Shown here in pieces: positions 5,855 through 64,000 of a stretch of 64,000 nucleotides of DNA; within the stretch, counting starts at the first letter, position 1, and every line of letters begins with the position of its first letter. The translations under genes were made by a program, and so were the position numbers. The DNA lies in NCBI GenBank assembly GCA_009885845.1, contig VFJW01000007.1, positions 1 to 64,000 of the forward strand. Direction: 5' to 3'. This DNA comes from Geobacter sp. (GTDB lineage Bacteria; Desulfobacterota; Desulfuromonadia; Geobacterales; Pseudopelobacteraceae). The notes under the pieces are model-generated. The model did no database searches. It was not told the origin of the DNA and saw nothing but the letters and a program-made list of their open reading frames with translations.

Positions 5855-5855
5855 T

Positions 5856-8432: not shown

Positions 8433-8552
8433 AGAAGATAATGAGGGGAGGGGGGACAGCATACGCAATTAATGTCAACCTGATTTTTTGATTATTCGCC
8501 GGGACTTCATCAAAGCTCGGCTGTGTACACCCCCCGATTCCACCCGTAGAAT

Positions 8553-14803: not shown

Positions 14804-14936
14804 AAGCCTGATTATTCTTATAGTTCTGTCGCTCTGCCTGGGGGCCGGGTGCTGGCTGATATTTATCTGGGCGGTCAAAAAGGGTGAATTTGAAGATGTA
14901 GAGAAGCCGAAACACCGTATGCTGGATGATGATTGA
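14796..14936 (+). CDS. ccoS: CcoS, cbb3 oxidase maturation protein
   Basis: A 46-residue single-helix membrane protein. The N-terminal helix LIILIVLSLCLGAGCWLIFIW is followed by the CcoS-like VKKGEFEDVEKPKHRMLDDD tail. The start ATG overlaps the end of ccoI by 8 bases. CcoS is needed for cofactor insertion into cbb3 oxidase. Its acidic tail is almost identical to that of the CcoQ-like protein at 47158-47301 (EEPKHRMLEDD). Confidence 0.9.
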   Translation: MDESLIILIVLSLCLGAGCWLIFIWAVKKGEFEDVEKPKHRMLDDD

Positions 14937-15034
14937 CCGGCCTGCAATCTTTATGCGTACAACAATAACATAGATCATTTTCAAATTATGTTTATACTGC
15001 GAAAAAAGGTACCATTAACCTGTAGAGGTAGAAA

Positions 15035-26100: not shown

Positions 26101-28542
26101 GTTGTGATGGAAAATTCGGTCAATTTTACGGCAGCCCGGACGTTTTTTGAGGAAGCCGCCGGTCTGCGTCGCACCTTGAAGGATGATATTTCTCTGGCCG
26201 AACAGTACCGGAATCTCGGCCGTATCCATGACCTTCGCCTCAATCAGTATGCAGTTGCCGAGCACTATTATGCCCAGGCCGGAGAACTCTATGCCTGGTC
26301 CGCCAACGGCGCGCTGGAGGCCGAAACACTCCTGGAACGGGGACGCTGCCAGCGTCTGCTCGGTAATTTTCCGGCCGCCGACAAACTCTATCGCGATGCG
26401 CTGACAAAAGTCGGCGCGAAGGATCTGCGCACGAAGATGCGGATAGTGCTGGAGCTGGCCAATAACGCCTGGTTCCAGGGGCGTTATCAGGAAGCTTTCG
26501 ACCTGCGTGAACAGGCGGAAAAGAGTGCTCTTGCAGAAAAATGGCCGTTGGAACAGGTTATGGCGAAAAATACCGGCGGGTTGATCTGGTGGACGCTTGG
26601 TGACAATAAGCGGGCAGAGCTGGAGTTGCGTGGCGCCTTGGAACGTGCAGAAAAACTGGCGGTCCGGCGCGACGAAGTTGCGACGACGCTGAATAACATC
26701 GGTCTGGTTCAGCGTGAGTCGGGTGAATACCCGAAAGCACTTGAGACGCTTGAAAAAGCGCTTGCAATTGACCGTACGCTCGGCTCCCGCTGGGCAATAG
26801 CGTACGATCTGCGCAATCTCGGTCAGACCCGTCTGAAAATGGGGGATGCCGCGATCGCGTTGCAGCAGTTCTCAGAGGCAGGCACTCTGGCTGCGGACAT
26901 CGGTGACAAGGTCAATCTGGCCAAGATTTTTCTCGCTCGCGGTGATGCCGAAACTGTTTTGAAGCTGCCTGCAGCTGCTGCAGGAAGCTACCGTAAGGCA
27001 CTTGATATTGCCGATGCGCTGCTGCTGCGGGAAGTGCGCTGGCGGGCACTGCTCGGTCTGGCCCGACTTCAGACAAATGCCGGAGAGTCGGCCAAAGCGG
27101 TGGCTTCGTACCAACAGGCACTGGAAACGGTCGAAGGGCTGCGTGCGGAAATAAAGCTGGACCAGCTGAAGGATGGTTTTCTTGCAGACAAGATGGATGT
27201 ATACTCAGGACTTGTCGGTCTGCTGGTCAATCTGCAAAGGAGTGATGAAGCATTTGCCGTGGCAGAGCGCTCCCGCTCCCGTAACCTGATTGACATTCTC
27301 GGTCGGCAGCGGCTGTCGCTTTCCGGTTCTGCCGATCAGGAGTTGTATGACCGCCAGAACCTGCTGAAAGAGCAGATGCTCGAACAGGAAAATCTGTCGG
27401 TTCAGACGGTCAACCCGAAAGAACGGGCACGGTATGTTCAGGCGTTTGAAAAGCTGCAGGGGGACTATCAGGATCTGTTGATCGACATTGAACGAAAGCG
27501 CCCTGAACTGCTTGCGCTGGTAAAGGTAAAGCCGACTACTCTGGACGATATCCGTATGCTGCTGGAACCGGGGGTTGTCCTGCTTTCGTACTATCAACTC
27601 CCCGACCGGCTGCTCTGCTGGAAGATCGATCATGATCGCGCGACACTGACAATTCAGAATATCCCGTCCGGTGAGCTGGCTTCAAAAATCTCCTCCTATC
27701 GCCGGATGCTGCAGAATCTGGAGCCGCTTGAAAAACAGTCGCGTGAACTGTATGATCTTCTGGTTGCAGGGCCTCTTGCCGGAAGCGGGTCGATCCGTGC
27801 AGTCGGCATTGTCCCTCATGGAAGTCTCCATTATCTGGCGTTTGCGACTCTGAATGATGGCCGGGATTATCTGATTGACCGGCAGCAGCTGTTTTACCTG
27901 CCGACAGCATCGGTGTTGAAATATACTCTGGCGAGGCGCAGTTCCGCGAAAAAGCTCCACATACTGGCCGTCGGAAATCCGGATCTCGGCAATGCTTCGC
28001 TTGATCTCCCGTTTGCTGAACGTGAGGCAGGAACCCTGCGCTGGAATTATCCGGACGTAACAACCCTGACCAGAGAACGTGCCACTGAAAGCTGGATTCG
28101 GGAACATATCAGCGAATTCGGTGTTATTCACATAGCTTCGCATGGTGAATTTGACCCGGTCAATCCGCTCTTTTCAGCTATCAGATTGACAAAGGATAGC
28201 AAGGCGGATGGCAAACTTCAGGCAGAGGAGATTTTCGGTCTAGATATCCGGGCTGATCTGGTGGTACTGAGCGCCTGCCAGACCGGCCTCGGAGATATTC
28301 GCAGAGGAGATGATGTGGTCGGAATGAACCGTGCATTTATCTTCGCCGGCACGCACTCGCTTATGTCCAGTCTGTGGCGGGTCAGCGATGTCTCAACGGC
28401 GATCCTGATGAAACAGTTCTACCGCAATTATTTGACGTATGGAAAAGCAGAGAGCCTGACACGCGCCATGCAGCACGTGAAAAACCGCTATCCGCACCCC
28501 GGATACTGGGGAGCTTTTGTCCTGACCGGGGATTATCAGTAG
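20185..28542 (+). CDS. Giant exported propeller/TPR/CHAT-domain protein
   Basis: About 2,785 residues. An N-terminal signal or anchor segment (TAVILMVLLITCSSPVTAS) is followed by a TolB-like beta-propeller (about 50-350; repeats such as LNPAGTLIAFVDAQDD and DIWLIDLT), then long arrays of TPR helices. Near 1530-1830 there is a region resembling a CHAT domain without a clear Cys-His pair, then more TPRs (about 1840-2330). The C-terminal CHAT peptidase domain has His2653 in IASHGEF and Cys2698 in LSACQTG, the expected caspase-like dyad. CHAT enzymes are often separated proteases activated by TPR sensors. The ATG overlaps the preceding stop (ATGA); a GTG 12 bases earlier is an alternative start. 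An export signal on a CHAT protein of this size is notable. Confidence 0.88.
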   Translation: MKRNSAVITATGITLRVSNAFCRTAVILMVLLITCSSPVTASPLGDELLAPAAPRPAPRSRPEVSPRPEIYSSRQVLYVTRAANGSRMVTVERGDKGDELWLYSFTAVPELPRMLHASPVRLAAPALNPAGTLIAFVDAQDDVKGDIWLIDLTKSDSIIRKLTGRESADDAPVFTVDGSALVYQRQMPGSELRELVRFHLQNNRSEPLKLGIDASFAAPAPDGNRWMFVSRSSDPGGDLWMWNEKSGQLTQVTGGSEQDLYPAWESPDTLLFTRQSPVGGNAATGQESGQIYRLQLNRSGDDGFPFVSPLTSVALMAVAPLPAADRFYFVAGLAGGGQVMSLPLSGEIPDRPTASEQWTLARIMLERQPPDPAHARLAVARVLAREESPTQEGALAGLALAGLMEQAGEIVRAEDHYRFVAQRYRLFLREAALAEIARIRVRTAQRLSDVVSQQRRREILHEAEQEMKTAAKGKGADATARYLIDTSRLLADFGGGADDLLAAIGFVEQVARLTEADRSLKAEAAFRRAVLLVKLEKGEGSLAALVDVATAYGDQEEWAEAAIAAVLDQVSPRERADQAALSALAERYRATLPRLAMGAWNRQGDVAYRANEWAKAKDAYRTVLEKFPPVSSPTAAARFALAEVLYREERYAEAKSLYEIEMNERPEDTPLYQLARSAYIRKTVAAGENLYRLGEIAAARSTFLDLIRYVGRSVEAHRGYIKSVAAMGQAAELLDLYRKLLNSYPDDPVLLYATGLTLTYLPGKEHTDEADRLIAWAADRMPSSEYPPQTRGYLAEVAETVHGERGGLERALTFYRRAWLLNRPLEQPENRANLDLNIGNIAFLLGSKATAWKFYRQRLDSKIPFDNPDTELIFQQRYAATAFQMREKEAPVNGYLRALHLVESRLNPSSPLDAFGRLSRRVVERLFSGTERTSVAESALNQQQAITAELEHMGASPPEAPPSAGWNIFDKSMRALVERQRAQLNAAPSWNKDAHKFATELNGMLAAVEKELDAVPRLVETAAEIHDRLALAYLEADRYTAAREQFDAAFTLNRGLGFSGNLASNRRSASIAAYKEAHAASGEEQQRLLRMSRDGFKEMLTLLAAYPPASKAPAKRSGGLVELTSNIALDKGGSTDAAFGFSAVQEQRLAEIYLARIQSELGDPAAASALLRKQLKQYRSDNSKIAVHDLYGVSLLFHRTAHVDYALGDLKNSASGFHRSTLLALQAGNPVSAMLNLINWGQLLTAEEKPGDSADFLNAEAQVSRLANSSRTALPSLVYARYYSDAGSLLARLAPIAADDGSRQALLYKALQRWDQVLLLAADSRDVDVLHQQQRQRAVAQLNRGAVLEALGLADNATAARTAALVDARRAAAYSLEWRALAALGRYDEALELIGQLPLTEYDLQRGELMERFAPNLEKLAARNPELSFALLERLSELERVQLLGRGALGLNDPATRAQFRAAAPRLAEIDRLRDAHVTVAASDKQYLHLRLQQEQAAVDDLFGAKLERIPSFYQSGGDGALRLAAASVALSELSRTGDISQKQAETFKAAQQQFNSLQATFNKECAAGKGGKLCRTVSPQPVELIDVQEALPGRMLLRFTPLDSLRWLLFTIGGSKGIVSEVIDKQALDSRLSAEPPVLAAYEDPSRFSSAPVTSWGLSASHLVQAVSLRKPFRRRILDPSGWWPAAEPFSKLTSTPMNERLNDAHTLVLPARAGLLPEVPSLPGGSGYSLPLWEDEKGQRHPFAGLSAAENLSLVVAPYAGFRQMYSLGHLAALQGVPSLLLASTAAPSVDGAAVETRAFVEAYATQSLGDARTQRKTGWLLLGDWGPDAAEAIKLGKSRFTEYGKAGILAHNAGSYPKALSLFENALAIVAENPSLAKQRTPLHRYARESAFAAGFTDRAIIHADALVTGLAKEKPYSAEHADALLRLGLLQGNAERFSDAAGSLKEGVGIFADLGMAKEQAAALSDFGVVMENSVNFTAARTFFEEAAGLRRTLKDDISLAEQYRNLGRIHDLRLNQYAVAEHYYAQAGELYAWSANGALEAETLLERGRCQRLLGNFPAADKLYRDALTKVGAKDLRTKMRIVLELANNAWFQGRYQEAFDLREQAEKSALAEKWPLEQVMAKNTGGLIWWTLGDNKRAELELRGALERAEKLAVRRDEVATTLNNIGLVQRESGEYPKALETLEKALAIDRTLGSRWAIAYDLRNLGQTRLKMGDAAIALQQFSEAGTLAADIGDKVNLAKIFLARGDAETVLKLPAAAAGSYRKALDIADALLLREVRWRALLGLARLQTNAGESAKAVASYQQALETVEGLRAEIKLDQLKDGFLADKMDVYSGLVGLLVNLQRSDEAFAVAERSRSRNLIDILGRQRLSLSGSADQELYDRQNLLKEQMLEQENLSVQTVNPKERARYVQAFEKLQGDYQDLLIDIERKRPELLALVKVKPTTLDDIRMLLEPGVVLLSYYQLPDRLLCWKIDHDRATLTIQNIPSGELASKISSYRRMLQNLEPLEKQSRELYDLLVAGPLAGSGSIRAVGIVPHGSLHYLAFATLNDGRDYLIDRQQLFYLPTASVLKYTLARRSSAKKLHILAVGNPDLGNASLDLPFAEREAGTLRWNYPDVTTLTRERATESWIREHISEFGVIHIASHGEFDPVNPLFSAIRLTKDSKADGKLQAEEIFGLDIRADLVVLSACQTGLGDIRRGDDVVGMNRAFIFAGTHSLMSSLWRVSDVSTAILMKQFYRNYLTYGKAESLTRAMQHVKNRYPHPGYWGAFVLTGDYQ
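25540..25577. repeat. Perfect 38-bp palindrome inside the CHAT gene
   Basis: Two 18-base arms (tcaactgctgcaccatca and its exact reverse complement) are separated by gt. It lies in the coding sequence of the degenerate CHAT region and encodes ASTAAPSVDGAAVE. It would form a very stable hairpin in DNA or mRNA. Confidence 0.92.
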
Positions 28543-35833: not shown

Positions 35834-35919
35834 TGGTAGCGGAGGCCGGACTCGAACCGGCATGACCTTGCGATCGGCAGATTTTGAGTCTGCTGTGTCT
35901 ACCATTTCACCACTCCGCC
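35834..35919 (-). tRNA. tRNA-Leu (anticodon CAA)
   Basis: On the minus strand an 86-base class II tRNA with acceptor stem GGCGGAG, anticodon loop CTCAAAA within the GCAGA/TCTGC stem, a variable arm, T loop GGTTCGAGTCC and an encoded CCA end. The CAA anticodon reads UUG. The acceptor stem starts with a G-U pair. Confidence 0.93.
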
Positions 35920-50612: not shown

Positions 50613-53114
50613 ATGTCCAAACTCACCCTCAGCCAGCTTTCCAGCTTACTTTTCCGCGCCTGCGACGATCTTCGCGGCAATATGGATGCATCAGAATACA
50701 AGGAATATATCTTCGGCATGCTGTTCCTGAAGCGACTTTCCGACCTGTTCGACCAGGAGCGGGAACAGCTCGCCAAGGATCTCAAGGTAAAAGGAATGGC
50801 CGAGGCTGTTATCGCCGGTCAGCTCACCAACCCTGACAAATACACATTCTTTGTGCCGGTAGAAGCCCACTGGTCAACGATTCGACACCTGAAGACCAAC
50901 GTCGGCACTGCACTCAACAAGGCGTTGGAAGCGCTGGAGGATGCCAACGTTGATGCCCTGCAGGATGTACTCAAGGGGATCAACTTCAACAAGAAGATCG
51001 GCCAGCGATCGCTGGACGACGATACCCTCGCCAACTTCATCCAGAACTTTGAGAAGATCCCGCTAAGAGACGAGAACTTCGAGTTTCCCGACCTTCTTGG
51101 AGCAGCCTACGAATACCTGATCAAATACTTTGCCGATTCCGCCGGCAAAAAAGCGGGGGAATTCTACACTCCGGCCGATGTGGTGCGTACTCTGGTGGAG
51201 ATTGTCGATCCCCAGCCAGGCATGAGTGTGTATGACCCCACCTGCGGTTCTGGGGGCATGCTCATCCAGACCCGCGACTATGTCCGAGAATGCGGCGGTG
51301 ATCCGCGTGACCTGGCGCTTGCTGGTCAGGAAAGCATTGGCACCACCTGGTCAATCTGCAAGATGAATATGCTCCTCCACGGCATCGACCACGCCGACAT
51401 CCGTCAGGAAGATACGCTGCGACACCCGCAACACAAGGCTGAGAACAACGAGCTTCAACGCCATGATCGCGTCCTCGCCAATCCCCCTTTCAGTCAGAAC
51501 TACATCAAAAAGGACATCGACTACCCCGGCCGCTTTGCCGTCTGGCTCCCTGAAAAGGGGAAGAAGGCCGACCTGATGTTCGTCCAGCACATGCTGGCCG
51601 TACTCAATGCCGATGGCAAGATGGCCACTGTCATGCCCCACGGCGTGCTTTTTCGGGGAGGCGAGGAGAAAGCGGCGCGAAGGCACTTCATTGAACACGG
51701 TTGGCTGGAGGCGATCATTGGTCTCCCCGCCGGACTCTTTTACGGCACCGGCATTCCTGCTTGCGTGCTGGTGATGAACAAAAAGGACGCCGGTTCGGGT
51801 GACAACGTGCGCGACCACGTCTACTTCATCAATGCCGACCGCGAATACCGAGAGGGGAAAGCTCAAAACTTCCTGCGACCCGAGGATATTTCCAAGATTG
51901 TTCACGCCTATCGCACTATGTCAGACATCCCCGGCTATGCCCGCCGGGTACCGGTGAGTGAGATCAAAGCCGAGGATTTCAACTGCAATATCCGCCGTTA
52001 CGTGGACAACGCCCCGCCGCCCGAACCCCATGATGTGCGCGCCCATCTGCTTGGTGGAGTGCCGACCGTTGAGATTGAGTCCCTGTCCCGCTACTGGACC
52101 AACTACCCCGGTCTGCGCGAGCGGGTGTTTGTTCCTCGTCCGGTTTCGTTAATTCAGAATTCATCATTCAACATTCATAATTACGCGGACTTCTCAGAAT
52201 CCGCGTCTGATCGCCGCGCCCTGACCGAGCTGGTCAAGACCGACCCCGGCGTAGCGGCGGCACAGAGCCGTTTTCAGCAGACGTTGGATGCGTGGTGGAC
52301 GGAGAACCTGCCGTTGGTTGAAGACCTCGCACCCAAGAACGGCCAGAAGGGCAACGTCTATGAACTGCGCCGACAGCTTCTCGTCACCATCAGTGATACT
52401 TTCATCGGACAGAATCTGTTGACAGACCACCAGATTCGCGGCGCCTTCGCCCGGTATGTGGATGACCTGAAGGCCGACCTCAAATCCATCGCTGCCAGTG
52501 GTTGGGGAGCGGAACTGATCCCCGACGCTGATATCCTGGAGAGTCAGTTCCCTGATATTTTGGCCGACATGGATCAGAAGCGCCTGCGCTTGGCTGAATT
52601 ATCAGCTCTCTACGCCGCTGCCGATGAAGAGGATTATGAGGACAGCGACGACACCGGAATACTTCCCGCAGATGAGGTCAAGACACTCAAGGCTGAACTC
52701 AAAGAGTCCAATGCCCAGGCAAAGCTGGCGAAGCGCGAAAACCGGGATGCTACATCTTATGTCGCTCGTGCAAAGGAAGCTGAAGCGCGATTAGTCCGGC
52801 ACAAGGCACTGGAAGATGAGGGAAAGCTGTTGAAGGCTGAGTTGCGTGCAACGGAGAAAAAACAGGAAGAGCTTGTTGCCGCCGCACGGGAGAAGATCAC
52901 ACCGGAAGAAGCTAAGGCTGTGATTCTCGATCGTTTGCACCGTGTGCTGGTGCAAACCTATGAAGGTTATCTACGGGCCGATCAGCGGGCATGCCTTGCA
53001 GTGTTGGAGAATCTGCATGGGAAGTATGCTGTTACAGCAAAGGCTATTGAGGCCAGGCGGGATGAGTCAGCGGCAAAGCTGAAGGGTTTTTTAGTGGAGC
53101 TGGGGTATGAGTGA
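50613..53114 (+). CDS. hsdM: Type I restriction-modification DNA methyltransferase subunit HsdM
   Basis: An 833-residue N6-adenine methyltransferase. The HsdM_N domain ([20 protein letters not shown]) is followed by the SAM-binding motif [10 protein letters not shown] and catalytic ANPPF (Asn290-Pro-Pro-Phe293). The region near residue 515 contains a heptamer repeat translated as [11 protein letters not shown] charged coiled-coil tail (about 680-833) makes the protein longer than the roughly 500 residues of the classic family. It overlaps hsdS by 8 bases. Confidence 0.93.
52152..52179 (+). repeat. Heptamer tandem repeat inside hsdM
   Basis: Four consecutive 7-base units: ATTCAGA, ATTCATC, ATTCAAC, ATTCATA, followed by ATT. 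They are AT-rich within a GC-rich gene and encode a short polar stretch between two conserved HsdM blocks, so they look like an in-frame insertion. Confidence 0.8.
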
Positions 53115-54354
53115 GTGGACTTACAAGAGTCTAGACGAACTCATCCGAACTGGTCAGATAGAACTTGGAAGAGGCAATATCATTTCCAAGCTCGACATTG
53201 ATGCCTGTCCGGGACCTTACCCTATTTATTCATCTTCAGCGCAACGTGACGGCAAGTTTGGTGAATTCGGAAAGTTCATGTTCGACGAAGAACTTATCTC
53301 ATGGTCTGTTGACGGTGGCGGGAATTTCTTTTATCGTCAACAGCATAAATTTTCAGTCACCAATGTATCTGGCTATTTACGTATTCGAACAAAGGAATTT
53401 AACTATCGATTTGTTTATTATGCGCTTGCTCTCCAGCATCGTTATATTACTTTCGACTATACTACTAAGGCGCATCCTAGTGTAATCCGCAAACTCTATT
53501 CAATCCCATCAATATTTGAACCGCAACAACGCCGAATCGCCGAAATACTTTCAACACTTGACGAAACAATTGTGCAGACCGAGGCAATAATTACGAAGAT
53601 GCAGCAGGTCAAGACGGGTTTGATGCACGACCTGTTCACCTGTGGTGTCACCCCTGACGGCCACCTCCGCCCCACCCGCGAGCAAGCCCCAACCCTCTAC
53701 AAAAACTCACTGCTTGGGTGGATTCCGAAGGAGTGGGAGGTCGAAAAACTGGGTGATATCTTGCGGAGATGCGGCGGTTATCTTCAAACTGGTCCTTTTG
53801 GAAGTCAGCTCCATGCTCATGAGTATCAGATCGAAGGTGTTCCAGTCGTGATGCCTCAAGACATCAACGATGGATTGATTGGCACAGAGCAGATCGCCCG
53901 GATTCACGAGGCACGTGCCAATGAATTGGCGCGACATCGAATGAGTCTTGGTGACGTAGTCATCGCCAGACGAGGTGATCTTTCTCGAGCGGCAGCAATC
54001 TCCGAGTCAGAACAGGGCTGGGTTTGCGGAACAGGGTGCTTCTTGTTGCGCTTAGGACAAAGCACCCTTACGGCAGACTTTGCGGCTCAAGTTTATCGGC
54101 AAGATTTTGTGCAGCGACAGATCGCTGGCAGGGCAGTCGGAACCACAATGCCGAGTTTGAACAATTCAGTCATGGCCGGTTTATTTTTCCCTTTTTGTGA
54201 TTTAGACGAGCAGTTGCGCATTGTCGAGCGATTGGAAGGAATGGAACAGAGTATTCAAGTTCTTGCCGAGGGCTTGCTCATAAACAGACAAATCAAACAC
54301 GGCCTCATGCATGATCTTCTGACCGGTTGTGTTCGAGTCAAGGAGACTTGTTAA
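53107..54354 (+). CDS. hsdS: Type I restriction specificity subunit HsdS
   Basis: A 415-residue specificity subunit with the usual two target-recognition domains (about 1-150 and 200-360), each followed by a helical spacer ([22 protein letters not shown] and a similar second spacer near 370-410). It defines the bipartite recognition sequence. The first half is AT-rich compared with hsdM, which suggests domain exchange. Its stop is directly followed by the ATG of the Sir2 gene. Confidence 0.92.
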
Positions 54355-55269
54355 ATGTCAACAACATTCAACCCATCACCTGTGATTCCACCTGAAATTG
54401 AAAATGCCGCACAATCTGGTGAACTTGTTGTTTTTGTGGGAGCCGGAATATCGCGTCTAATTAAATGTCCGTCTTGGGATGGGTTTGCTGACCGAGTACT
54501 AGAACAACTTGTGCCAGAGGGAATTGACTACTACGAACTTTCTCAGATAAGGAGCATTTCTGATCCTAAAAAGCGTCTATCTATCGCAAAAATAGTGGCA
54601 CAAAAGAAGGGTATTAATATTGATTACAATTCTATTTTTGAAGTTACACTGAAACCAGATAATGTCTATGGTTATCTCAACGCCTTTAATTCATCATTCG
54701 TTACAACAAACTACGAGAAGTATTTAAAGCCATGTTCTCGTGAGAATGAACCAGAAGAAAACTGGAGATTTTACAAGCGCGAACATCTCCTTGGAGTGAA
54801 TCTCGATCGAAATGGAAATGTAGTACACTTGCATGGATGTTTGGACGCTCCCGACAGCATGGTGATCACTACAAGGGACTACTTGGATCATTATTCTAGT
54901 AAGGAAGTTGAAGTATTCCTGAAAGATCTCTTCAAGAGAAAGACGGTTTTATTCCTTGGATATGGCCTGGATGAGGTCGAAGTCCTCGAATACGTCCTGC
55001 GTCGTGGAGATGCGAGTAGAAAATCAGAGGGGGAGAGAGTGCGACGATACATTCTCCAGGGGTTCTTTAATGCAGAGATGGCCCTTTTTGACTTGTTTCA
55101 GGCCTATTATCAAGATTCATTTGCAACTAAGCTAATTGGATTTCCTAAGGATTATGGAGATTATGGTCACCAGGTAGAAATTCTCGCCTCATGGTCGAAG
55201 AAGCTGAAATTTGGAGGCATTTCCCTTGTCGATGAAGTTGCTGCTTTAGAGGATGAAATCCGTGGCTGA
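54355..55269 (+). CDS. SIR2-domain protein (defence-associated, NADase-type)
   Basis: A 304-residue Sir2-like protein. The NAD-binding loop VVFVGAGIS (Gly29-Ala30-Gly31), VTTNYEKYL, the catalytic histidine in HLHG (His160) and the FLGYGLDEVE motif are all present, so the NAD site looks intact. Such Sir2 domains in phage-defence systems deplete NAD+ on infection. The gene starts at the base after hsdS ends and overlaps the next gene by 17 bases, so the pair is probably one unit. It is AT-rich compared with hsdM and hsdR. Confidence 0.85.
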   Translation: MSTTFNPSPVIPPEIENAAQSGELVVFVGAGISRLIKCPSWDGFADRVLEQLVPEGIDYYELSQIRSISDPKKRLSIAKIVAQKKGINIDYNSIFEVTLKPDNVYGYLNAFNSSFVTTNYEKYLKPCSRENEPEENWRFYKREHLLGVNLDRNGNVVHLHGCLDAPDSMVITTRDYLDHYSSKEVEVFLKDLFKRKTVLFLGYGLDEVEVLEYVLRRGDASRKSEGERVRRYILQGFFNAEMALFDLFQAYYQDSFATKLIGFPKDYGDYGHQVEILASWSKKLKFGGISLVDEVAALEDEIRG

Positions 55270-58090
55270 GGAACTTACACCAAAACAGAAGAGTGCGATG
55301 CAGCGAGCTAAACAAAATCCTGATCTGCAGGGTATTTTGTTTCGAAAGGCTATTGGTGTGAACTGGTTCTCGGCATTTTTAGAAGCCGGATTCCTAAATC
55401 CTTCAGATATTCCACCTCCTGTGTCTGCAAAAGAGGAGGGATATGTAAGTATTCCGGCGTGGCCAATTACAGACTATCTTGTGGCAACGAGTGAAGAATT
55501 TAGAGATCCATTAAATGAGAGTTTTGCTTTCCAAACACTAGAATTTATCCGAGCTGCAACCATTTTTTCGAGGGAGCAAGGATTCGGCAATTATCGTGTT
55601 TGGTGGCAATTTTCTAAGATTATATGCAACATTTCGGGGCATTTAATAAGTTTGAAAGATATTGCCCTGATTGATACTTGGCTCGACGACCGCTTCGAGA
55701 GAGGGATAGTAGCGGAAACCCTTGGATGCAAATGGCTACTAATTCTTCTCAGTCTAAATGATGACCATAGCAGGGCACTTTCGATCAGCATCTTAGACGT
55801 CCTTTTCAAAATAAAGTTTGGTGGCGAGTCGGACGTTTCTTCGAGCAAGAAGAAGGCAACGTTACGCTTTGATAGCTGGTATGCGAAAAAAATAATTGAA
55901 AAAGTAGCTTGTAAGGCTGGATCGGTACTCGGAAGAGATGCAGTTCATATATTTCAAGTTCGACTAGAGACCATCTTGAACATGGATGATAATGATAAGT
56001 GGTCCTGTATATGGCGATCGGCTATTGAGAATCACGACCAAAATCATGGGGCTGATGATTCTGAAGATATTATCGTTGAAGCTTTTCGTGATTCTCTATT
56101 GGCATACATCGAAGCAGTGCCAAGCTCTTCTCTTGAATATGTTGAAGAGTTGCTGGGTAATAAATTCGAAACTATCAAACGTGTTGCAATTTACGCGATA
56201 GATCAGCAATTCCAATTCTTAAATAATTGTGCCGATCATGTTATCTCTAGAGAGTACTTTAATAACAGCAATTTCCGTCACGAGTTATGGCACTTCTTGA
56301 GAAATCATTATAAGGAACTCGGGCTGGTTCAAAAGAAATGTGTTTTGAGTATCGTCAATGATTTAATTGAAACTGATGAGAACGGCCAGACAAATGATGG
56401 TGCGACTGCATATCAACGGGCAATATGGTTTTCAGCAATTAAAGATATTGATGAAGAAACCGCCCAGTATTATCGCAACAATATTGAAATAGCAGGAGTC
56501 GAACCAAAGAATCCAGATTTTTCAAGCTATATGACCGTTAGCGATGTTGACTACAACTCCCCGATACCTATCGAGGAATTGCTGTCATTAGAAATTGATG
56601 ATCTCCTTAAACAGCTTTCAACGGTAAAGGATCAGGGTTCATTCAAAGAACCTAGTTTCAGGGGATTAGTAAAAGCCTTACAGCAGGCCATAAAAGCAGA
56701 ACCTCTTCGGTATCATGCGCTGTTGCATAAGTTCACAGCCACAGATCTGCCGTTTGTTAATTCGATTATCGAAGCATACCAGGAATTATGGGCAGAAAAG
56801 GCGCAGTTGCCTTGGGATGAAATATGGGATTCCTTGCTCAAATTCTGTCGAGACATCGTAAATCAGGATCGATTCTGGGTATCTGAAAATGCTAAGGAAC
56901 GAAGCTCATTTGTCGCCAACAGATACTGGGTTGTTGGTGCAATGGGACGCCTGATTGAGTCAGGAACCAAGTCAGATGATCATTCTTTCAACGAGAAATT
57001 ACTTGATGAGGCTGAAAATGTTCTATTAATACTCCTCGATAAGGAGAATGGCGAAGTGTTCAAGGTCGACACTGATGCCGTATCGTTAGCAATCAATAGC
57101 CCCCGGGGGCGCTGTATTGAGGCACTGATAAATTTGACTCTTCGTTCCTGTCGTTTGTCAGACAAGAAATTCGGAAACCATGTGGAAGCATGGAAACATT
57201 TTCAGCCTGTTTATGATGCTGAATTGATACGATCAGAAATTGGTGAGTATGAGTTTGCTACGCTTGTGAGTAATTACCTGCCAAATTTCATGTACATGTC
57301 AAATGATTGGGTTTTAGAGAATCTTGATAGGATCTTCGACCAGAGAATATATCAAAAATGGCTATGTGCAATGCAAGGGTACGCATATGTTGGTCGAGTC
57401 TACGAGGCAATTTACAAGCATCTTAATGAACAGGGGCACCTGATAAAAGCTCTTGATGACGAAAATATTAAAGGAAGGGTGAATGAAAAAATTATACAAA
57501 ACATCGCGGTTGCATACCTTAACAACTTTGAGACACTGGATGATGGGCTCATAAAACAAATAATCCAAAGAAGGCAGCAGTCAGAATTAAGCCACATGAT
57601 ATGGTTTTTTTGGACGTTGCGAAAAGATGGCGATGATAATACCAAGGCAAAAGTTTTTGCATTATGGCCGCTTTTCCTTGAAGTTATTGACACGAGCAAC
57701 CGCGAAGGTTGTTTGCTTGCATCGAAACTGTGTGATTGGGCTATATTTGTGGATGAAGTAACTGACGAAAACAAGAAGCTTATTCTTGCGGTGGCTCCAT
57801 TTGCGGAGGAGGGATATAACTCATATGATCTGCTTAGGAGTATTGCAAAAATCAGCGAACGGCAACCAATTGAGGCTTATGAGATATGGCTTCGACTTCT
57901 TGAAGGTGCGAAACCAGATTTTCCGGAGGAATCCATACGAGAAGCACTCACCAACTTTATACAGCTAGGGCATGACGGGCAACGAATGGCAAAACATATC
58001 GTTAGCGAGTACTTGAAAGGCGGTAATGAAAATCCTTTCCAGTGGCTAAGAGAGATAACTGCGGATGGTATAGATCGTTTAGCAGATTAG
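55253..58090 (+). CDS. Large helical protein of unknown function, partner of the SIR2 protein
   Basis: A 945-residue protein with no domain I recognise with confidence. It is predicted mainly alpha-helical (many amphipathic stretches such as EELLSLEIDDLLKQLSTVKD), without signal peptide or membrane segments, and has no clear nuclease or ATPase motif. It could be a HEAT-like scaffold or sensor. In some known systems a Sir2 domain is fused to a long uncharacterised region (DUF4020 is one I recall); here the two parts may be split. The GTG 9 bases after the ATG has better ribosome-site spacing and may be the true start. Confidence 0.85.
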   Translation: MKSVAEELTPKQKSAMQRAKQNPDLQGILFRKAIGVNWFSAFLEAGFLNPSDIPPPVSAKEEGYVSIPAWPITDYLVATSEEFRDPLNESFAFQTLEFIRAATIFSREQGFGNYRVWWQFSKIICNISGHLISLKDIALIDTWLDDRFERGIVAETLGCKWLLILLSLNDDHSRALSISILDVLFKIKFGGESDVSSSKKKATLRFDSWYAKKIIEKVACKAGSVLGRDAVHIFQVRLETILNMDDNDKWSCIWRSAIENHDQNHGADDSEDIIVEAFRDSLLAYIEAVPSSSLEYVEELLGNKFETIKRVAIYAIDQQFQFLNNCADHVISREYFNNSNFRHELWHFLRNHYKELGLVQKKCVLSIVNDLIETDENGQTNDGATAYQRAIWFSAIKDIDEETAQYYRNNIEIAGVEPKNPDFSSYMTVSDVDYNSPIPIEELLSLEIDDLLKQLSTVKDQGSFKEPSFRGLVKALQQAIKAEPLRYHALLHKFTATDLPFVNSIIEAYQELWAEKAQLPWDEIWDSLLKFCRDIVNQDRFWVSENAKERSSFVANRYWVVGAMGRLIESGTKSDDHSFNEKLLDEAENVLLILLDKENGEVFKVDTDAVSLAINSPRGRCIEALINLTLRSCRLSDKKFGNHVEAWKHFQPVYDAELIRSEIGEYEFATLVSNYLPNFMYMSNDWVLENLDRIFDQRIYQKWLCAMQGYAYVGRVYEAIYKHLNEQGHLIKALDDENIKGRVNEKIIQNIAVAYLNNFETLDDGLIKQIIQRRQQSELSHMIWFFWTLRKDGDDNTKAKVFALWPLFLEVIDTSNREGCLLASKLCDWAIFVDEVTDENKKLILAVAPFAEEGYNSYDLLRSIAKISERQPIEAYEIWLRLLEGAKPDFPEESIREALTNFIQLGHDGQRMAKHIVSEYLKGGNENPFQWLREITADGIDRLAD

Positions 58091-58135
58091 ATGCAACAGT
58101 GTATTAACATTTTATACTTTATTACGGAGTAGCCA

Positions 58136-59239
58136 ATGGAAAATCAAAATATTTCCTCTGAAATTTTGGAAAATGATTTTGACACTCAAGATGAGGATCT
58201 TTACGACGGTAAATTGCTTCCATTTTCACTACCTGAAGAGGTTGATATACGGGAAGATCATTTTACCGTATTTGAGCTAAACAGAAAGATGAAAGACGAT
58301 AAAATAGTATTAAATCCCGAATTTCAAAGAAATCTTGTTTGGAAACCTGAACAAAAGTGTAGGTTCATAGAATCAATACTTATGGGAATACCTCTACCGC
58401 CTTTTTACGTTTATCATGATCTTTCTGGAAAATATATCATGGTTGATGGGCTCCAAAGAAGCTCAACAATTGCAAGTTTTCTAAATGATGAATTTATGTT
58501 GGAAGAACTTAAAATATTGGTTGATTTGAATGGCTATAAATTTTCTAAGCTTAAATCACTACAAACACGCTTAGAGGACAAGAAGTTGCTGATCTACGTT
58601 ATAAAACCGTCAGTGCCAGGAGAGGTTTTATATGACATTTTCAATAGAATCAATACTGGTGGTACCCAACTGACTAGGCAAGAGATCCGAAACTGCATCT
58701 TCATTGGAAAATCCACTGCCTTGTTAAAGAAGGTTTCGGAAAAAGCATCCTTTATAAAAGCTATCGATGGTGGCATCTCGCCAACGCGAATGAAGGATAG
58801 AGAGGCAGTTTTGAGGTGCCTTGCTTTTATATTGTTATCGTATGATAACGATTACAAAAATGATATGGATGATTTTTTGGGTAGGGCTATGCGGATTTTA
58901 AATCAATTAACAGATTCTGAAATTTTAAACATAGAAGAGAACTTTGATAAAGTTATGACTCAAACTTACAAAGTATTTGGAAGGAGCGCTTTCAGGATTC
59001 CGACTGAAAATTCGCGAGGTCGCATCAACATTGCTCTTTTTGAAGTGGTCGCATATTTCTTCCACAAAAATAATATTAAATCAGAATCGGGTAAAACTGA
59101 GCGAATAAAAGAAAACCTTCGTCAGCTTTTGCAAGACGACAAGTTTGTAGATGCAATCCGGTTCTCAACTGGTGACAAAAAAAGGGTAATCAGGCGATTT
59201 ACAATGATCGAGCGACTAGGAGACATGAATGCTCAATAG
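58136..59239 (+). CDS. DUF262-domain protein (ParB/Srx-like, GmrS-type fold)
   Basis: A 367-residue DUF262 protein. It shows the family motifs VLNPEFQRNLVWKPEQKCRF, SILMGIPLPPFYVYHD and DGLQRSSTIASFL (Asp104, Arg108). DUF262 is the ParB/sulfiredoxin-like domain found in GmrSD enzymes that use nucleotide hydrolysis to attack modified DNA; the HNH partner domain (DUF1524) is missing here. A ggag site precedes the ATG. It overlaps the ATPase gene by 11 bases, which links them functionally. Confidence 0.9.
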   Translation: MENQNISSEILENDFDTQDEDLYDGKLLPFSLPEEVDIREDHFTVFELNRKMKDDKIVLNPEFQRNLVWKPEQKCRFIESILMGIPLPPFYVYHDLSGKYIMVDGLQRSSTIASFLNDEFMLEELKILVDLNGYKFSKLKSLQTRLEDKKLLIYVIKPSVPGEVLYDIFNRINTGGTQLTRQEIRNCIFIGKSTALLKKVSEKASFIKAIDGGISPTRMKDREAVLRCLAFILLSYDNDYKNDMDDFLGRAMRILNQLTDSEILNIEENFDKVMTQTYKVFGRSAFRIPTENSRGRINIALFEVVAYFFHKNNIKSESGKTERIKENLRQLLQDDKFVDAIRFSTGDKKRVIRRFTMIERLGDMNAQ

Positions 59240-60461
59240 AATAATATTAAAGAATTTAAAGTGCTTTCGAGAGGTGACATCGATTCCACTTTCTAAAATC
59301 AACCTTTTTACGGGCGTGAATGGTAAAGGCAAGTCAACGGCGATTCAATCATTGCTATTAATCAGGCAATCAGTAGAAATTAATAGAGTTACACAAAACG
59401 TGTATTTTAATGGGAATTGTGTTGAGCTTGGGACATTCAAAGACATCAAGAACGTAGATGTGCCAACAAAAGAACCGATCACCTTGACTTATGCTTTTAG
59501 TAGCGAGGAAGGTGAATTTAAAATCAGCTATAACCTTGCTTCTGATGAAGCGGATGATATGAGTGCCGCAATAACAAAGGTCTCAATAAAGGGTGTATTT
59601 AAAAACAAAGGCTTTGAAACTGTAATTTCGAAAAAACGTAAAAGCTACATTATTAAGCATAACGGTAAAGATCAGTTAATGCGGTGGTCAGATTTGTTAT
59701 TTAATAGAGAAGTTATCGGAAACGATCAGTACCTCAAGTTCATTAAGTCCCTGTTTAATCTAACGAAGATACATTATGTCTCAGCCGATCGATTGGGACC
59801 ACAGGATTTTTATATTAAGACAAATATATCTAGGTTTATAAATGTGGGGAATAGGGGGCAGTATACCGCAAATATTCTTGCATTTAAAAAAGATGACTTG
59901 GTTTCAGATGAATTGTGCTTAGAAGGATATCCAAAGTCTCTGCCCGACCAGACCGAGGGATGGCTCAGTACTATTTTGGGTGGCGGAAAAATTAGCGTCA
60001 GTACAACCGACGCTAGTATTGTTTTGGTTCAAATGAATTCAAATAGTGGTAAGCAGTTATTTAAACCAATGAATGTTGGATTTGGATACAGCTACATCCT
60101 TCCAATAATAGTCTCAGCTTTAATAGCTCAAAAAGATACTATTCTCATAATTGAAAACCCAGAAGCACATTTACATCCTCGTGCACAATCACAGCTTATA
60201 AAATTTTTAGCCCGAGTTGCATGTTCAGGGGTTCAAGTAGTTATAGAATCGCATAGCGACCATATTTTCAACGGTTTAAGAGTAGCTGTTGTCGATAAGG
60301 AGATTAATCTCCAGCATACTGATGTCAAGGTCACATATTTTACCGGGGGAGATCAATGTCTTGAAGAAATAGAAATTAAATCTGACGGTTCAGTTACAAA
60401 TTGGCCGGATGATTTCTTCGATCAGACCGATAAAGACTTCCGCATCATTTTTGGAATGTGA
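59229..60461 (+). CDS. SMC/RecF-like AAA ATPase with DUF3696-like C-terminus
   Basis: A 410-residue ABC-type ATPase of the OLD/RecF-like group. Walker A GVNGKGKS is at residues 29-36 and Walker B with switch is LIIENPEAHLHPRAQSQL, followed by VVIESHSDHIFNGLR. The C-terminal part ends TNWPDDFFDQTDKDF, as in DUF3696 proteins. No TOPRIM nuclease was noticed. It lies between the DUF262 gene and a gene of unknown function, with overlap or a 4-base gap, consistent with a three-component system in which this subunit senses or moves on DNA. Confidence 0.88.
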   Translation: MLNRIILKNLKCFREVTSIPLSKINLFTGVNGKGKSTAIQSLLLIRQSVEINRVTQNVYFNGNCVELGTFKDIKNVDVPTKEPITLTYAFSSEEGEFKISYNLASDEADDMSAAITKVSIKGVFKNKGFETVISKKRKSYIIKHNGKDQLMRWSDLLFNREVIGNDQYLKFIKSLFNLTKIHYVSADRLGPQDFYIKTNISRFINVGNRGQYTANILAFKKDDLVSDELCLEGYPKSLPDQTEGWLSTILGGGKISVSTTDASIVLVQMNSNSGKQLFKPMNVGFGYSYILPIIVSALIAQKDTILIIENPEAHLHPRAQSQLIKFLARVACSGVQVVIESHSDHIFNGLRVAVVDKEINLQHTDVKVTYFTGGDQCLEEIEIKSDGSVTNWPDDFFDQTDKDFRIIFGM

Positions 60462-60465
60462 TGAT

Positions 60466-61266
60466 ATGCATATTTTTATAAATGAACTGTCTTTAGACAA
60501 CCAGTTCCTCGCTATGGATGATTTTAAGACGTCATTGCGTGAAGTTTACACAATACTAGATGCTATAAATGCGATGAATATTGAAAAACACATTTTTCAT
60601 TCTGAGCTCCTTTGGTGCCAATCTGTCATGAATGGTGAATTGTTTAGCCAAGTTTTTAATAAGCTTCCTGATAAGTCACTACAAACAGCTTTTAATAACA
60701 TCTTAAAAAACAAGCTGAATTCGAAACCCTGGACTGCAACTAGAGTCCATCAATCCACGGATTCCTATAAATGTCGTAAAGTAAATGTCACGGATACTGG
60801 TATTGCAGAGGTAGCTGAGAGAAGCTATCGCGACGGTAGACGCAAATGCCTTTTAATTAATTTTTCACACTCACGTTTTTCAAGCAAGAAATTTAGAGTT
60901 TTAAAAGAAGGGGCTTTTAGAAAGTTCGTTGATGCAACTTCCACATGCGATGATTTTGGATTGTGGACTATTAATAATGGGTTGGCTACCCCGAGATATG
61001 ACACGACTTCAGTGAATCCTCCAAGAGATTATCACTCGGTTCTTTCTGATCCTATCCGATTTGCTAAAACCAACAAGCCACCAGTTCAAGGAAGAGCAGT
61101 TTATGAGGAGCTGTTGACTGGAAAGTTCTATTATGTTGATAACATGCATAGTGGCCAAAGTGCCCACCTGGAGATTTACGATTCTAATTCCAAACATGTC
61201 GGCGAGGCGACCCTAGATGGGAGACTTATTCCAGGGACTACTAAGAATAGGACGTTGAATGGTTGA
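60466..61266 (+). CDS. Unknown protein with colicin E3-like C-terminal segment
   Basis: A 266-residue protein. Residues 1-190 show no known domain (many Lys/Arg near 90-150). The last 55 residues, starting near GRAVYEELLTGKFYYVD, resemble the catalytic core of colicin E3-type ribosomal ribonucleases: Asp225 and His228 (DNMH), Glu236 in HLEIY after a 4-residue insert relative to E3, then KHVGEATLDGRLIPG, and Arg262. This is my pattern match, not a computed one. If right, it would be the toxic effector of the DUF262-ATPase set. The start was chosen downstream of the ATPase stop; an earlier in-frame ATG at 60409 overlaps it. Confidence 0.7.
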   Translation: MHIFINELSLDNQFLAMDDFKTSLREVYTILDAINAMNIEKHIFHSELLWCQSVMNGELFSQVFNKLPDKSLQTAFNNILKNKLNSKPWTATRVHQSTDSYKCRKVNVTDTGIAEVAERSYRDGRRKCLLINFSHSRFSSKKFRVLKEGAFRKFVDATSTCDDFGLWTINNGLATPRYDTTSVNPPRDYHSVLSDPIRFAKTNKPPVQGRAVYEELLTGKFYYVDNMHSGQSAHLEIYDSNSKHVGEATLDGRLIPGTTKNRTLNG

Positions 61267-61298: not shown

Positions 61299-64000
61299 AT
61301 GTCTGAATACCTCCACGTAGAAAAACCGTACCTCAATCAGCTTGCCACCCTCGGCTGGACGGCCATCGACCAGGGCCAGGGATTTATCCCGTCCGCACCG
61401 ACGGCCAGCCTGCGCGATACTTTTCGTGAATGGCTGCTACCCGATGTCTTCCGCAACTCAGTGCGCAACATCAACCGCACCGCCGATGGCACCCCTTGGC
61501 TGACCGACCGCCAACTCGACGATCTGCGTTCTCAAATCCTGCGCCAGCCCAACCGAACCCTGCTGGAGGCCAACGAGGCGATACAGGCGCTTTTCCTCAA
61601 GGCTCAGGTGGATCGCAACGAAATCACCGGCGAACCTGACCCGGTGGTGCACCTGATCGACTTTGCCCACCCCGAACGCAACCAGTTCCACGCCATCAAC
61701 CAGTTCCGTATCGACACCCCCGGCCACGTAAAGAAATGCATCATCCCGGATATCGTGCTCTTTGTGAACGGCATCCCACTGGTGGTAATCGAAGCCAAGA
61801 TCGGCGACGCTACCACCGCTAACCCGATGCACGCCGCCTACGAACAACTGCTCCGCTACCGCAACGGCCGCAACTCGACGGCTACCGCCGGCTTGAATGA
61901 GGGTGAGCCCCGCCTGTTCCACACTAATCTCCTGCTGATCCGCACCTGCGGTGAGAAGGCGGAGTTCGGCAGTATCACCTCGGGTCACGAACACTTTTGC
62001 GCCTGGAAGGATATCTGGCCTGAGAGTAACCGGAACTATACACCACCTCTGGGAGTCGAACGTGAACAGGAACGGTTGATCCAGGGACTTCTCGCACCGG
62101 CAACGCTGCTTGATGTGTTGCGCACCTGCACGGTCTTCATGGATACCGACTCAGGCAAGCGGGTGAAGGTGGTCTGCCGCTACCAGCAGTATCGCGCCGC
62201 TCACCGGATTGTTGAACGCCTGCGTACCGGCAAGACATCAGAGGAACGCTCTGGCGTCGTCTGGCACACCCAGGGTTCGGGCAAGTCACTTACCATGGTA
62301 TTCGTGGCGCGGATGTTGCGGGCATCACAAGACCTTTCCGACTTCAAGATCCTGCTGATCAACGACCGCGTCGATCTGGAGGATCAACTCGCTGCCACAG
62401 CCAAGTTGATCGGCGGCAAAGTGAACGTCATCGAGAGCACGGCAGAATTGCGCGAGCACCTGAGTACCGATGCCTCCGACATTAACATGGTGATGGTACA
62501 TAAATTCATGGAGCGCGCAGAGGAATTGCCGCCAATAGTGGCTGAGGCGCTGGCCAGCTATCGCCCGCCGCCGTCCGGATCAACCTTTGGCGTGGTCAAT
62601 CCGTCCGAACGCATTCTGCTGATGATTGACGAGGCGCACAGAACGCAAGGCTCTGACCTGGGTGAAAACATCTTCGAGGCATTCCCCAACGCAACCCGTA
62701 TTGCCTTTACCGGCACCCCGCTCATCTCTGAACAGCACGGCACCAAACGCACGGTGAAGCGTTTCGGCGAATACATCGACACTTACAAGCTGATGGATGC
62801 GGTGCATGACGGCGCTACGCTGCAGATCCTCTATGAAGGGCGGACGGCGGATACTGCCATCAAAGACAAGCACGGCTTCGACACCAAGTTTGAAGACCTC
62901 TTCCGTAACCGGAGCGAGGAAGAACTGGCTGCCATCAAAAAGAAGTACGGCGCCAGCGGTGATATTCTGGAAGCTGAACAGCGCATCGCGGCCATTGCCC
63001 GCGATCTGGTGGCGCACTACATCGACAATATACTCCCCGACGGTTTTAAGGCGCAGGTTGTCTGTCATTCAAAGCTGGCAGCTATCCGCTATCTGACGGC
63101 GATACGTGACGCATTGGCCGAACGGCTGGACCGGGAGAGACTCAAGCCAAAGCCCGACGAAGAGCTGATCCGGCGCATTGCCTTCCTGAAGGCTGTAGTG
63201 GTTGTATCCTCCGACTCCACAAATGAACTGGCCGCCATTACCGAGGCGCGCAAGGAGGCGAAACGCTGGAACGCGGTGGAGAACTTCTGCAAGCCTTTTG
63301 ATCTGGATGACCCGGACAAGAATCTGACCGGAATCGCCTTTCTGATCGTCTGTGACATGCTGCTGACCGGCTTCGACGCGCCGGTTGAGCAGGTTATGTA
63401 TATCGACAAGCGCCTGCGCGAGCACAACCTGCTACAGGCCATTGCCCGGGTGAACCGGGTGACGAAGAACAAGCACCGGGGCTTCATCGTCGATTACATC
63501 GGACTGGCCAACCACCTGATGGAGGCGCTCAGCATCTATTCTGAGGAAGACGCCGAAGATATCCAGCAAGGACTGAAGAACCGGCTTACTGAGCTGCCGA
63601 TTCTGGAGGAACGCTACCAGCGCCTTCTGCAGCATTTCCGCGCTGCTGGAGTGGCGGAGATCGAGCTATTTGTTAAGGGTGAACTGGCAACACCGGAGGC
63701 TGACGTAGCCGTGGTACACGCGGCGGTGGGAGCGATGCAGGATATCAAGCGTCGAGCTGACTTTGAAGTCTACCTGAATAAGTTCCTCCAAAGCCTGAAC
63801 CTGATCCTCCCCCATGCGTCAGGGCATCCCTACCGGCCACCGGCGCGGCGTTTCGGCTATCTCCTCCGCATGGTCAAGGAACGCTACAAAGACGACTCCC
63901 TCGATATTGCCGACGCCGGCGAGAAGGTGAAGGCGCTGATCAATGAGCACCTGATCGACCTGGGGATTAATCCCAAGATCCCACCTATAGAATTGCTGTC
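61299..64000 (+). CDS. hsdR: Type I restriction endonuclease subunit HsdR (3' end outside window)
   Basis: The frame is open from the ATG to the window end (900 codons). It shows the nuclease site Asp151, Glu165 and Lys167 (PDIVLF ... VIEAK), the helicase Walker A TQGSGKS (Lys329), DEAH at 444-447, FTGTPLIS, and a late motif LLTGFDAPVEQVMYIDK followed by LQAIARVNRV. It cuts DNA after translocation by the HsdMS complex. It returns to the GC-rich composition of hsdM, so the five genes between hsdS and hsdR look like an insertion. Confidence 0.94.
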   Translation, partial: MSEYLHVEKPYLNQLATLGWTAIDQGQGFIPSAPTASLRDTFREWLLPDVFRNSVRNINRTADGTPWLTDRQLDDLRSQILRQPNRTLLEANEAIQALFLKAQVDRNEITGEPDPVVHLIDFAHPERNQFHAINQFRIDTPGHVKKCIIPDIVLFVNGIPLVVIEAKIGDATTANPMHAAYEQLLRYRNGRNSTATAGLNEGEPRLFHTNLLLIRTCGEKAEFGSITSGHEHFCAWKDIWPESNRNYTPPLGVEREQERLIQGLLAPATLLDVLRTCTVFMDTDSGKRVKVVCRYQQYRAAHRIVERLRTGKTSEERSGVVWHTQGSGKSLTMVFVARMLRASQDLSDFKILLINDRVDLEDQLAATAKLIGGKVNVIESTAELREHLSTDASDINMVMVHKFMERAEELPPIVAEALASYRPPPSGSTFGVVNPSERILLMIDEAHRTQGSDLGENIFEAFPNATRIAFTGTPLISEQHGTKRTVKRFGEYIDTYKLMDAVHDGATLQILYEGRTADTAIKDKHGFDTKFEDLFRNRSEEELAAIKKKYGASGDILEAEQRIAAIARDLVAHYIDNILPDGFKAQVVCHSKLAAIRYLTAIRDALAERLDRERLKPKPDEELIRRIAFLKAVVVVSSDSTNELAAITEARKEAKRWNAVENFCKPFDLDDPDKNLTGIAFLIVCDMLLTGFDAPVEQVMYIDKRLREHNLLQAIARVNRVTKNKHRGFIVDYIGLANHLMEALSIYSEEDAEDIQQGLKNRLTELPILEERYQRLLQHFRAAGVAEIELFVKGELATPEADVAVVHAAVGAMQDIKRRADFEVYLNKFLQSLNLILPHASGHPYRPPARRFGYLLRMVKERYKDDSLDIADAGEKVKALINEHLIDLGINPKIPPIELL

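Follow-up and report, generated by a model that had tools for sequence, protein, structure and literature searches.

What is the relationship between a type I restriction-modification operon and the five genes that interrupt it between hsdS and hsdR? The question is raised by the last part of the window, i.e. the whole stretch of 64,000 nucleotides that was analysed. The first-pass annotation had read there hsdM, hsdS, a SIR2 gene, a 945-aa ORF, a DUF262 gene, an ATPase gene, an unknown gene and hsdR, and had taken the five inner genes (the cargo) for two anti-phage modules nested in the operon, one formed by the Sir2 pair and the other by the DUF262 trio. The gene order and its coordinates hold, with two starts moved (to 60466 and 61299), and matches to the PADLOC Dsr1 and Menshen profiles lend support to the two putative modules. 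The genes are the following:

50613-53114, plus strand: hsdM, type I methyltransferase subunit, 833 aa (Pfam N6_Mtase 7.8e-97 and HsdM_N; PADLOC MTase_I 2e-244)
53107-54354, plus strand: hsdS, specificity subunit, 415 aa (Pfam Methylase_S 1e-15)
54355-55269, plus strand: SIR2-domain gene, putative NADase effector, 304 aa (Pfam SIR2_2 1.6e-18; PADLOC Dsr1)
55253-58090, plus strand: DSR1-like body, presumed sensor or scaffold, 945 aa (PADLOC Dsr1 1.2e-124)
58136-59239, plus strand: nsnA-like gene, DUF262/GmrSD_N protein, 367 aa (Pfam GmrSD_N 8.4e-26; PADLOC NsnA 7.4e-120)
59229-60461, plus strand: nsnB-like gene, ABC/SMC-type ATPase with a DUF3696 end, 410 aa (Pfam AAA_15 5.3e-25, DUF3696 3.3e-10; PADLOC NsnB 9.2e-109)
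60466-61266, plus strand: nsnC-like gene, 266 aa from ATG 60466 (PADLOC NsnC PDLC03889 2.6e-67)
61299-64000 in the window, ending at 64553, plus strand: hsdR, restriction/translocase subunit, 1084 aa (Pfam HSDR_N and SWI2_SNF2; NCBIfam hsdR 430 bits, above its cutoff)

The nsnC-like gene most likely starts at ATG 60466 and not at position 60409 of the ORF list, because the PADLOC NsnC match begins there (residue 20 of the longer ORF); the hsdR start is most likely ATG 61299 rather than the listed TTG 61263. The type I assignment relies on intact hsdM, hsdS and hsdR genes in one gene order with the cargo between them, a complete hsdR being read in L024; the NCBIfam hsdM model gives 205 bits on hsdM, under its cutoff of 242.75. 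A YgjP-like metallopeptidase gene lies 3' of hsdR. The uniform direction and tight spacing described earlier are confirmed: all genes from hsdM to hsdR lie on the plus strand, neighbours either overlapping or being separated by no more than 45 nt. The SIR2 ATG immediately follows the hsdS stop, the SIR2 and 945-aa genes share 17 nt, 45 nt separate the latter from the DUF262 gene, which overlaps the ATPase gene by 11 nt, and intervals of 4 nt and 32 nt precede ATG 60466 and the hsdR ATG respectively. One long operon comprising hsdM to hsdR and the cargo is plausible. A consensus scan of the plus strand found no promoter-like or terminator-like site in the cargo gaps and no promoter-like site just 5' of hsdM. 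It carries little weight, because of this last result and because its totals are close to the shuffled expectation.

The AT-richness that drew attention to the cargo is real. Whole-gene GC is 0.417 for the SIR2 gene, 0.413 for the 945-aa gene and 0.359, 0.370 and 0.389 for the DUF262, ATPase and nsnC-like genes, i.e. 0.36-0.42 against 0.557 for hsdM and about 0.58 for hsdR, with hsdS at 0.480. The codon-use check that had been proposed agrees: GC3 lies at 0.34-0.39 in the five cargo genes, whereas the mean is 0.55 (sd 0.07) in the 37 other window ORFs of at least 100 aa, a set that excludes hsdS (intermediate, GC3 0.47); hsdM reaches 0.658 and the portion of hsdR inside the window 0.714. Within the cargo, the lower GC of the DUF262 trio compared with the SIR2 pair suggests that the two differ in origin. 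Such an abrupt change of composition in a draft genome of 179 contigs could also be produced by an assembly that joined unrelated contigs, and the NsnC-hsdR junction was seen in the window only. A chimera is nevertheless hardly credible, as the genes overlap or abut, the order hsdS-SIR2-body recurs in an independent assembly (L003) and the same gap is also filled in a single-contig genome (G098). Elsewhere in the window, a single ORF of 2789 aa is present far upstream (20173-28542), as well as a tRNA-Leu (caa) gene on the minus strand (35834-35919). As to the host, a contig of G135, a genome of the same order, proved identical to the Geobacteraceae bin L006 over 5000 compared bases, so that the window probably derives from a member of that order.

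The first two cargo genes cover, one after the other, a single PADLOC Dsr1 profile (PDLC04166, 1227 positions): the SIR2 gene matches positions 7-301 (1.1e-58) and the 945-aa gene positions 307-1221. By sequence, they therefore constitute a two-gene form of a DSR1-like NADase defence: the 945-aa gene, which had been labelled as unknown, encodes the DSR1-like body, and SIR2 is left to a gene of its own. The NCBIfam Dsr1 model matches the two genes weakly (27.6 and 33.8 bits, cutoff 1400), so that the kinship with experimentally tested DSR1 proteins is distant, and the name attached to PDLC04166 is PADLOC's. The SIR2 protein has the catalytic Asn and His of a SIR2-type NADase domain, N119 and H160, both unchanged across 10 homologues; the histidine altered in the PDB chain KomC(H146N) is the counterpart of H160 in the alignment. 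The long C-terminal body typical of DSR1 is supplied by the 945-aa gene. The single polypeptide of DSR1 is not found here. Indeed, among the 19 members of a body tree, window counted, 14 have SIR2 on a separate ORF, one is fused to SIR2 (L073), three carry an N-terminal TIR domain and one has another N-terminus; this tree omits the partial L004 and the weak or differently split L091-L094 and L097. As SIR2 and body are on separate ORFs, the pair is best described as a two-gene relative that presumably works like DSR1.

Split SIR2 and body genes, which overlap or lie side by side, were observed in a Nitrosomonadaceae bin, in Anammoxibacter, in a Geobacteraceae bin, in Sneathiella, on a Vibrio coralliilyticus plasmid and in further genomes. 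This distribution over several phyla indicates that the split form is no local accident. PDLC04166 matches occur in 5 of 277 genomes of the class and 14 of 395 of the phylum (the window's genome being in both). The Vibrio coralliilyticus plasmid is the only one found with a body relative, and none was found in viral contigs or phage records. Of the three TIR-fused bodies (L082, L083, L084), that of L084 is immediately preceded by a SIR2 gene, and L083 has a SIR2-like piece at its contig edge. Two types of NAD-consuming domain, SIR2 and TIR, are swapped on one body, in support of SIR2 as the putative effector and the body as a putative sensor or scaffold. The AlphaFold model of the body (mean pLDDT 80.3, pTM 0.49) predicts a helical solenoid. 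It resembles generic HEAT/armadillo folds (best Foldseek E 4.6e-6, TM about 0.2-0.3), the best VIA match being the PP2A A subunit (Z 15.1, rmsd 5.2 over 349 residues). DSR2 is not among the matches listed in this structural comparison, which is no argument against a kinship with DSR2. At the level of sequence, the body matches none of the solved structures (E up to 1). No report of a two-gene DSR1 was found in the literature searched, in which subscription papers and preprints are sparsely covered, and the pair appears to be a new variant of a known system. Its effector is naturally apart from its presumed sensor, a situation in which activation can be tested by mixing purified proteins.

The three following genes are adjacent and in the DUF262-ATPase-NsnC order of Menshen, each matching the corresponding PADLOC profile. 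The DUF262 protein contains the motif VDGLQR in place of (I/V)DGQQR, the family motif according to the accessible part of a review which also lists a DUF262 gene in Menshen, reports that this gene is required for phage resistance in published members, and describes a predicted OLD nuclease in this system (PMC10952713). Here, no nuclease domain was matched by Pfam in the NsnB-like or NsnC-like protein: the former shows AAA_15/AAA_21 and DUF3696, with a match to an OLD-family PDB chain over 49 residues (2e-6), and the latter has no Pfam match at E up to 1. No claim is made about the fold of the NsnC-like protein, because it gave a pLDDT of 37.9 when folded alone. Membership of the GmrSD/BrxU type IV group was considered and rejected, as neither the DUF262 gene nor the genes next to it gave a DUF1524 match (E up to 1). 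Among the 141 genomes of the order, NsnA relatives (E up to 1e-40) are present in four, window's genome counted, and in the other three (L075-L077) they have NsnB-like and NsnC-matching neighbours in the same order. At E up to 1e-30 NsnA relatives appear on 28 plasmid records. No NsnC relative was found in viral contigs. The SIR2 pair and the NsnABC trio are each found elsewhere without the other. The combination had not been recognised by the first reading and no literature report of it was found either, with the same sparse coverage of subscription papers and preprints; each module taken alone is, on the other hand, recognisable by PADLOC.

The gap between hsdS and hsdR was then surveyed in relatives. 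HsdR searches (E up to 1e-150, with no more than two candidates scored in each genome) retained 14 of the 277 genomes of the class and 17 of the 395 of the phylum, three of them in both sets. The resulting 28 genomes, mostly drafts, and L003, found via its body gene, gave 29 operons. After removal of G001 (hsdR fragment), G250 and G414 (contig beginning just upstream), G526 (506 bases) and G404, 24 operons were left, including G146, with the hsdS end only, and G413, with hsdS in two ORFs. The gap holds 1.3-6.9 kb in 15 operons and 233-721 bp in three, and is tight (<30 bp) in six; without the window and L003, which both entered the survey through the DSR1 pair, large gaps amount to 13 of 22. 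A PADLOC defence or candidate gene was detected in all 15 large cargos (limits E 0.001 or 1e-5), the matches in G519 and G543 being to candidate (PDC) families only. The contents are as follows, under the names used by PADLOC or Pfam:

Window: DSR1 pair and Menshen
L003: DSR1 pair and AbiE
G098: SIR2-pAgo and RmrA-like (pair named via its 96.5% identity to the scanned G133 pair)
G133: SIR2-pAgo and TIR
G135: type III-A retron genes and Olokun
G160: REase-like, RmrA-like and AbiE
G260: PD-T7-3 and RmrA-like
G225, G146 and G398: GmrSD-like
G519: PDC-S22
G543: PDC-S14 and PDC-S32
G643: OLD
G539: Lamassu and AbiEii
G628: DRT1a

The comparison of relatives that had been called for thus reveals junctions that are empty or occupied by other genes; the five genes are not constant partners of hsd, and the hsdS-hsdR gap appears, from these sequences, as an exchangeable slot. 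The hsdM-hsdS junction served as control in 21 operons (G404 in): 18 overlap by ORF limits, an insert of about 1.2 kb is present in two (G643, G628), and in G539 an hsdM fragment lies in a gap of 353 bp. PDC-S22 was observed between hsdM and hsdS in G628 (L071, reverse complement 8506-9390) and between hsdS and hsdR in L060 (reverse complement 13859-14680). Cargo ORFs of 685, 168, 160 and 223 aa have no PADLOC match, and the slot is therefore a place to look for new systems. These results could also reflect a gap that simply tolerates insertions and lends its transcription to promoterless genes, with no cooperation with restriction. The diversity and interchangeability of the cargo systems are in keeping with such hitchhiking, as are the gaps devoid of plus-strand promoter-like sites in the weak scan and the traces of repeated recombination described below. 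However, defence or candidate genes in 15 of 15 large cargos indicate that selection acts at least on the type of cargo. This neutral reading, which is a possibility though somewhat doubtful, is compatible with the exchangeable slot except on the matter of cooperation.

Could the seven or eight genes instead form one integrated machine, in which methylation or recognition by HsdMS licenses the SIR2 and Menshen effectors in the manner of MADS? Overlaps and tight spacing run along the entire operon, the arrangement hsdS-SIR2-body, with the hsdS stop directly at the SIR2 ATG, is common to the window and L003, and body relatives follow an hsdS gene or fragment in L105 (7222-11856, an open ORF of 941 aa), in L109 (7439-12146, where the body covered by the Dsr1 profile is split at a different place) and in L073 (9048-13119, an hsdS fragment at a contig edge). 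Against this, the SIR2 and body pair occurs in L005, L007, L044, L074, L102, L103 and others, and the NsnABC trio in L075-L077, with no hsd in the stretches read, closely related hsd operons have other cargo, and 6 of the 24 surveyed junctions are tight. This makes an integrated machine quite improbable. MADS has a dedicated set of MAD proteins. Membership of MADS was rejected, the matches to the MAD2, MAD3 and MAD5 models being weak and far under cutoffs. The expectation that such genes also belong to defence islands elsewhere is borne out in part: the SIR2 pair is found near McrBC-type genes (Vibrio plasmid), and several body relatives come after other hsdS genes.

A looser form of cooperation is provided by PrrC, which is located within a type I locus and is triggered upon inhibition of the restriction enzyme by a phage, according to the available text of the report (PMC12707154). 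The modules might likewise be guardians that respond once restriction is inhibited, and their co-location with hsd in one operon fits this model. No sequence feature pointing to a contact with HsdR or HsdM was found here, however, and relatives of both modules exist with no hsd in the stretches read; such a role is unlikely, if a little less so than the integrated machine.

How do the modules enter the exchangeable slot? The operons nearest to the window (HsdR 87-93% identical) bear different cargo, and the edges of the slot are sharp: similarity stops within the last hsdS codons and restarts at the hsdR ATG. Between the window and the G098 operon, DNA similarity ends 27 bp before the hsdS stop. 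The SIR2-pAgo cassettes of G098 and G133 (L025, reverse complement 4336-7577; L026, 4431-7672) share 96.5% identity along 3242 bp, a length that takes in the last ~60 bp of hsdS, whereas the hsdM and hsdR segments of the same operons are 81-82% identical. The cassette must therefore have moved between backbones. A segment of L055 (reverse complement 12368-12528) is probably a decayed cassette, as it shares 76% identity with the beginning of the L026 TIR gene. In addition, a 5' fragment of hsdR, starting at about its start codon, lies within the cargo in 4 of the 18 gaps above 200 bp:

G160 (L054, reverse complement 4503-4766): hsdR nt 6-264 from the ATG, 92% identical, between two systems
G643 (L068, 14127-14322): 101 nt from 2 nt before the ATG, 90%, followed by a piece of the hsdS tail
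G628 (L071, reverse complement 14911-15010): 69 nt, 86%, preceded by an ATG of its own
G135 (L027, 7044-7104): 61 nt beginning 1 nt upstream of the ATG, 75%, forming the in-frame start of the Olokun A gene and lying between two systems

The first residues of the G628 fragment differ from those of the resident HsdR, and it may accordingly stem from another hsdR lineage. When the query was lengthened by 150 nt upstream, similarity still ended at about the start codon. With full HsdR proteins of eight operons as queries, every cargo match begins at residue 1, one match in another protein search beginning at residue 7; the full HsdM proteins of eight operons gave no match in cargos. DNA controls with hsdR beyond nt 500 and with hsdM (8 genomes each, the four positives not among them) gave no match at E 1e-4. 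A 27-nt match of nt 177-203 of another genome's hsdR in the G135 cargo (1.4e-5) is off this pattern and probably due to chance. These footprints are suggestive of successive cassette arrivals, each cassette landing in hsdR and the full hsdR being restored afterwards. No literature report of them was found, within the same coverage of subscription papers and preprints. DNA and protein searches found no footprint in the window's own cargo, so that the formation route of its stack is deduced from relatives. A more specific scheme has about an even chance of being correct. It supposes a recombinase-free bay where modules land in the first hsdR codons, homologous recombination restores the hsdR 5' end and modules stack between hsdR (hsdS) fragments, the newcomer being sometimes fused to the HsdR N-terminus (Olokun A in G135); the DSR1 body would be a general sensor that swaps its NADase partner (separate SIR2, fused SIR2 or fused TIR). 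For the swapping of defence genes without obvious integrases, a slot with sharp edges and hsdR leftovers offers a readable record of stepwise stacking.

Taken together, the locus is most probably a type I restriction-modification operon whose hsdS-hsdR gap is an exchangeable cassette slot, occupied here by two complete and separable anti-phage modules. HsdMS/HsdR would cut incoming unmethylated DNA. Should a phage escape restriction, the solenoid body may sense a phage component and activate the SIR2 subunit, which would consume NAD+ and halt the infection. Menshen would act independently, with the DUF262 protein as NTP-dependent sensor, NsnB as ATPase and NsnC as effector. The cargo is probably carried along by the operon's own transcription. 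New cassettes would be brought in by recombination involving the 3' end of hsdS and the 5' end of hsdR, an entry that in some relatives would leave an hsdR 5' fragment inside the cargo.

The presence of defence genes inside type I operons is established, and the view of restriction-operon gaps as hotspots for defence modules, advanced at the outset, has precedents in DarTG2, TgvAB and PrrC, as far as the accessible text of the three reports goes (PMC12255303, PMC11411939, PMC12707154). The individual systems are known, and so is their nesting in such operons; new variants are the split DSR1, the stack of DSR1 and Menshen and the footprints. Like DSR1, the first module has a SIR2 domain followed by a long body and spans one Dsr1 profile nearly end to end; unlike DSR1, it consists of two overlapping genes instead of one protein, and its NCBIfam Dsr1 match is weak. 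The second module has all the Menshen genes, NsnA, NsnB and NsnC, in the same order, but is positioned behind a DSR1-like module in a type I operon; the OLD nuclease of the review was not matched by Pfam in NsnB or NsnC. In EPEC, DarTG2 is inserted between hsdS and hsdR, a site considered a potential recombination hotspot (PMC12255303). The accessible text of this report describes the same slot and also a metallopeptidase gene downstream (M48 in EPEC, YgjP-like here), but another cargo of one module with a repressor gene upstream, and mentions no footprints. In Vibrio cholerae, TgvAB is found within a type I operon as a cargo active alone, and RloF is also mentioned in the part of the report available (PMC11411939). 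Judging from that part, TgvAB shares with the present locus defence genes in a type I operon, a DUF262 protein included, but it is a two-gene GmrSD-like system, whereas the DUF262 protein described here belongs to an ATPase-bearing trio beside a putative NADase pair.
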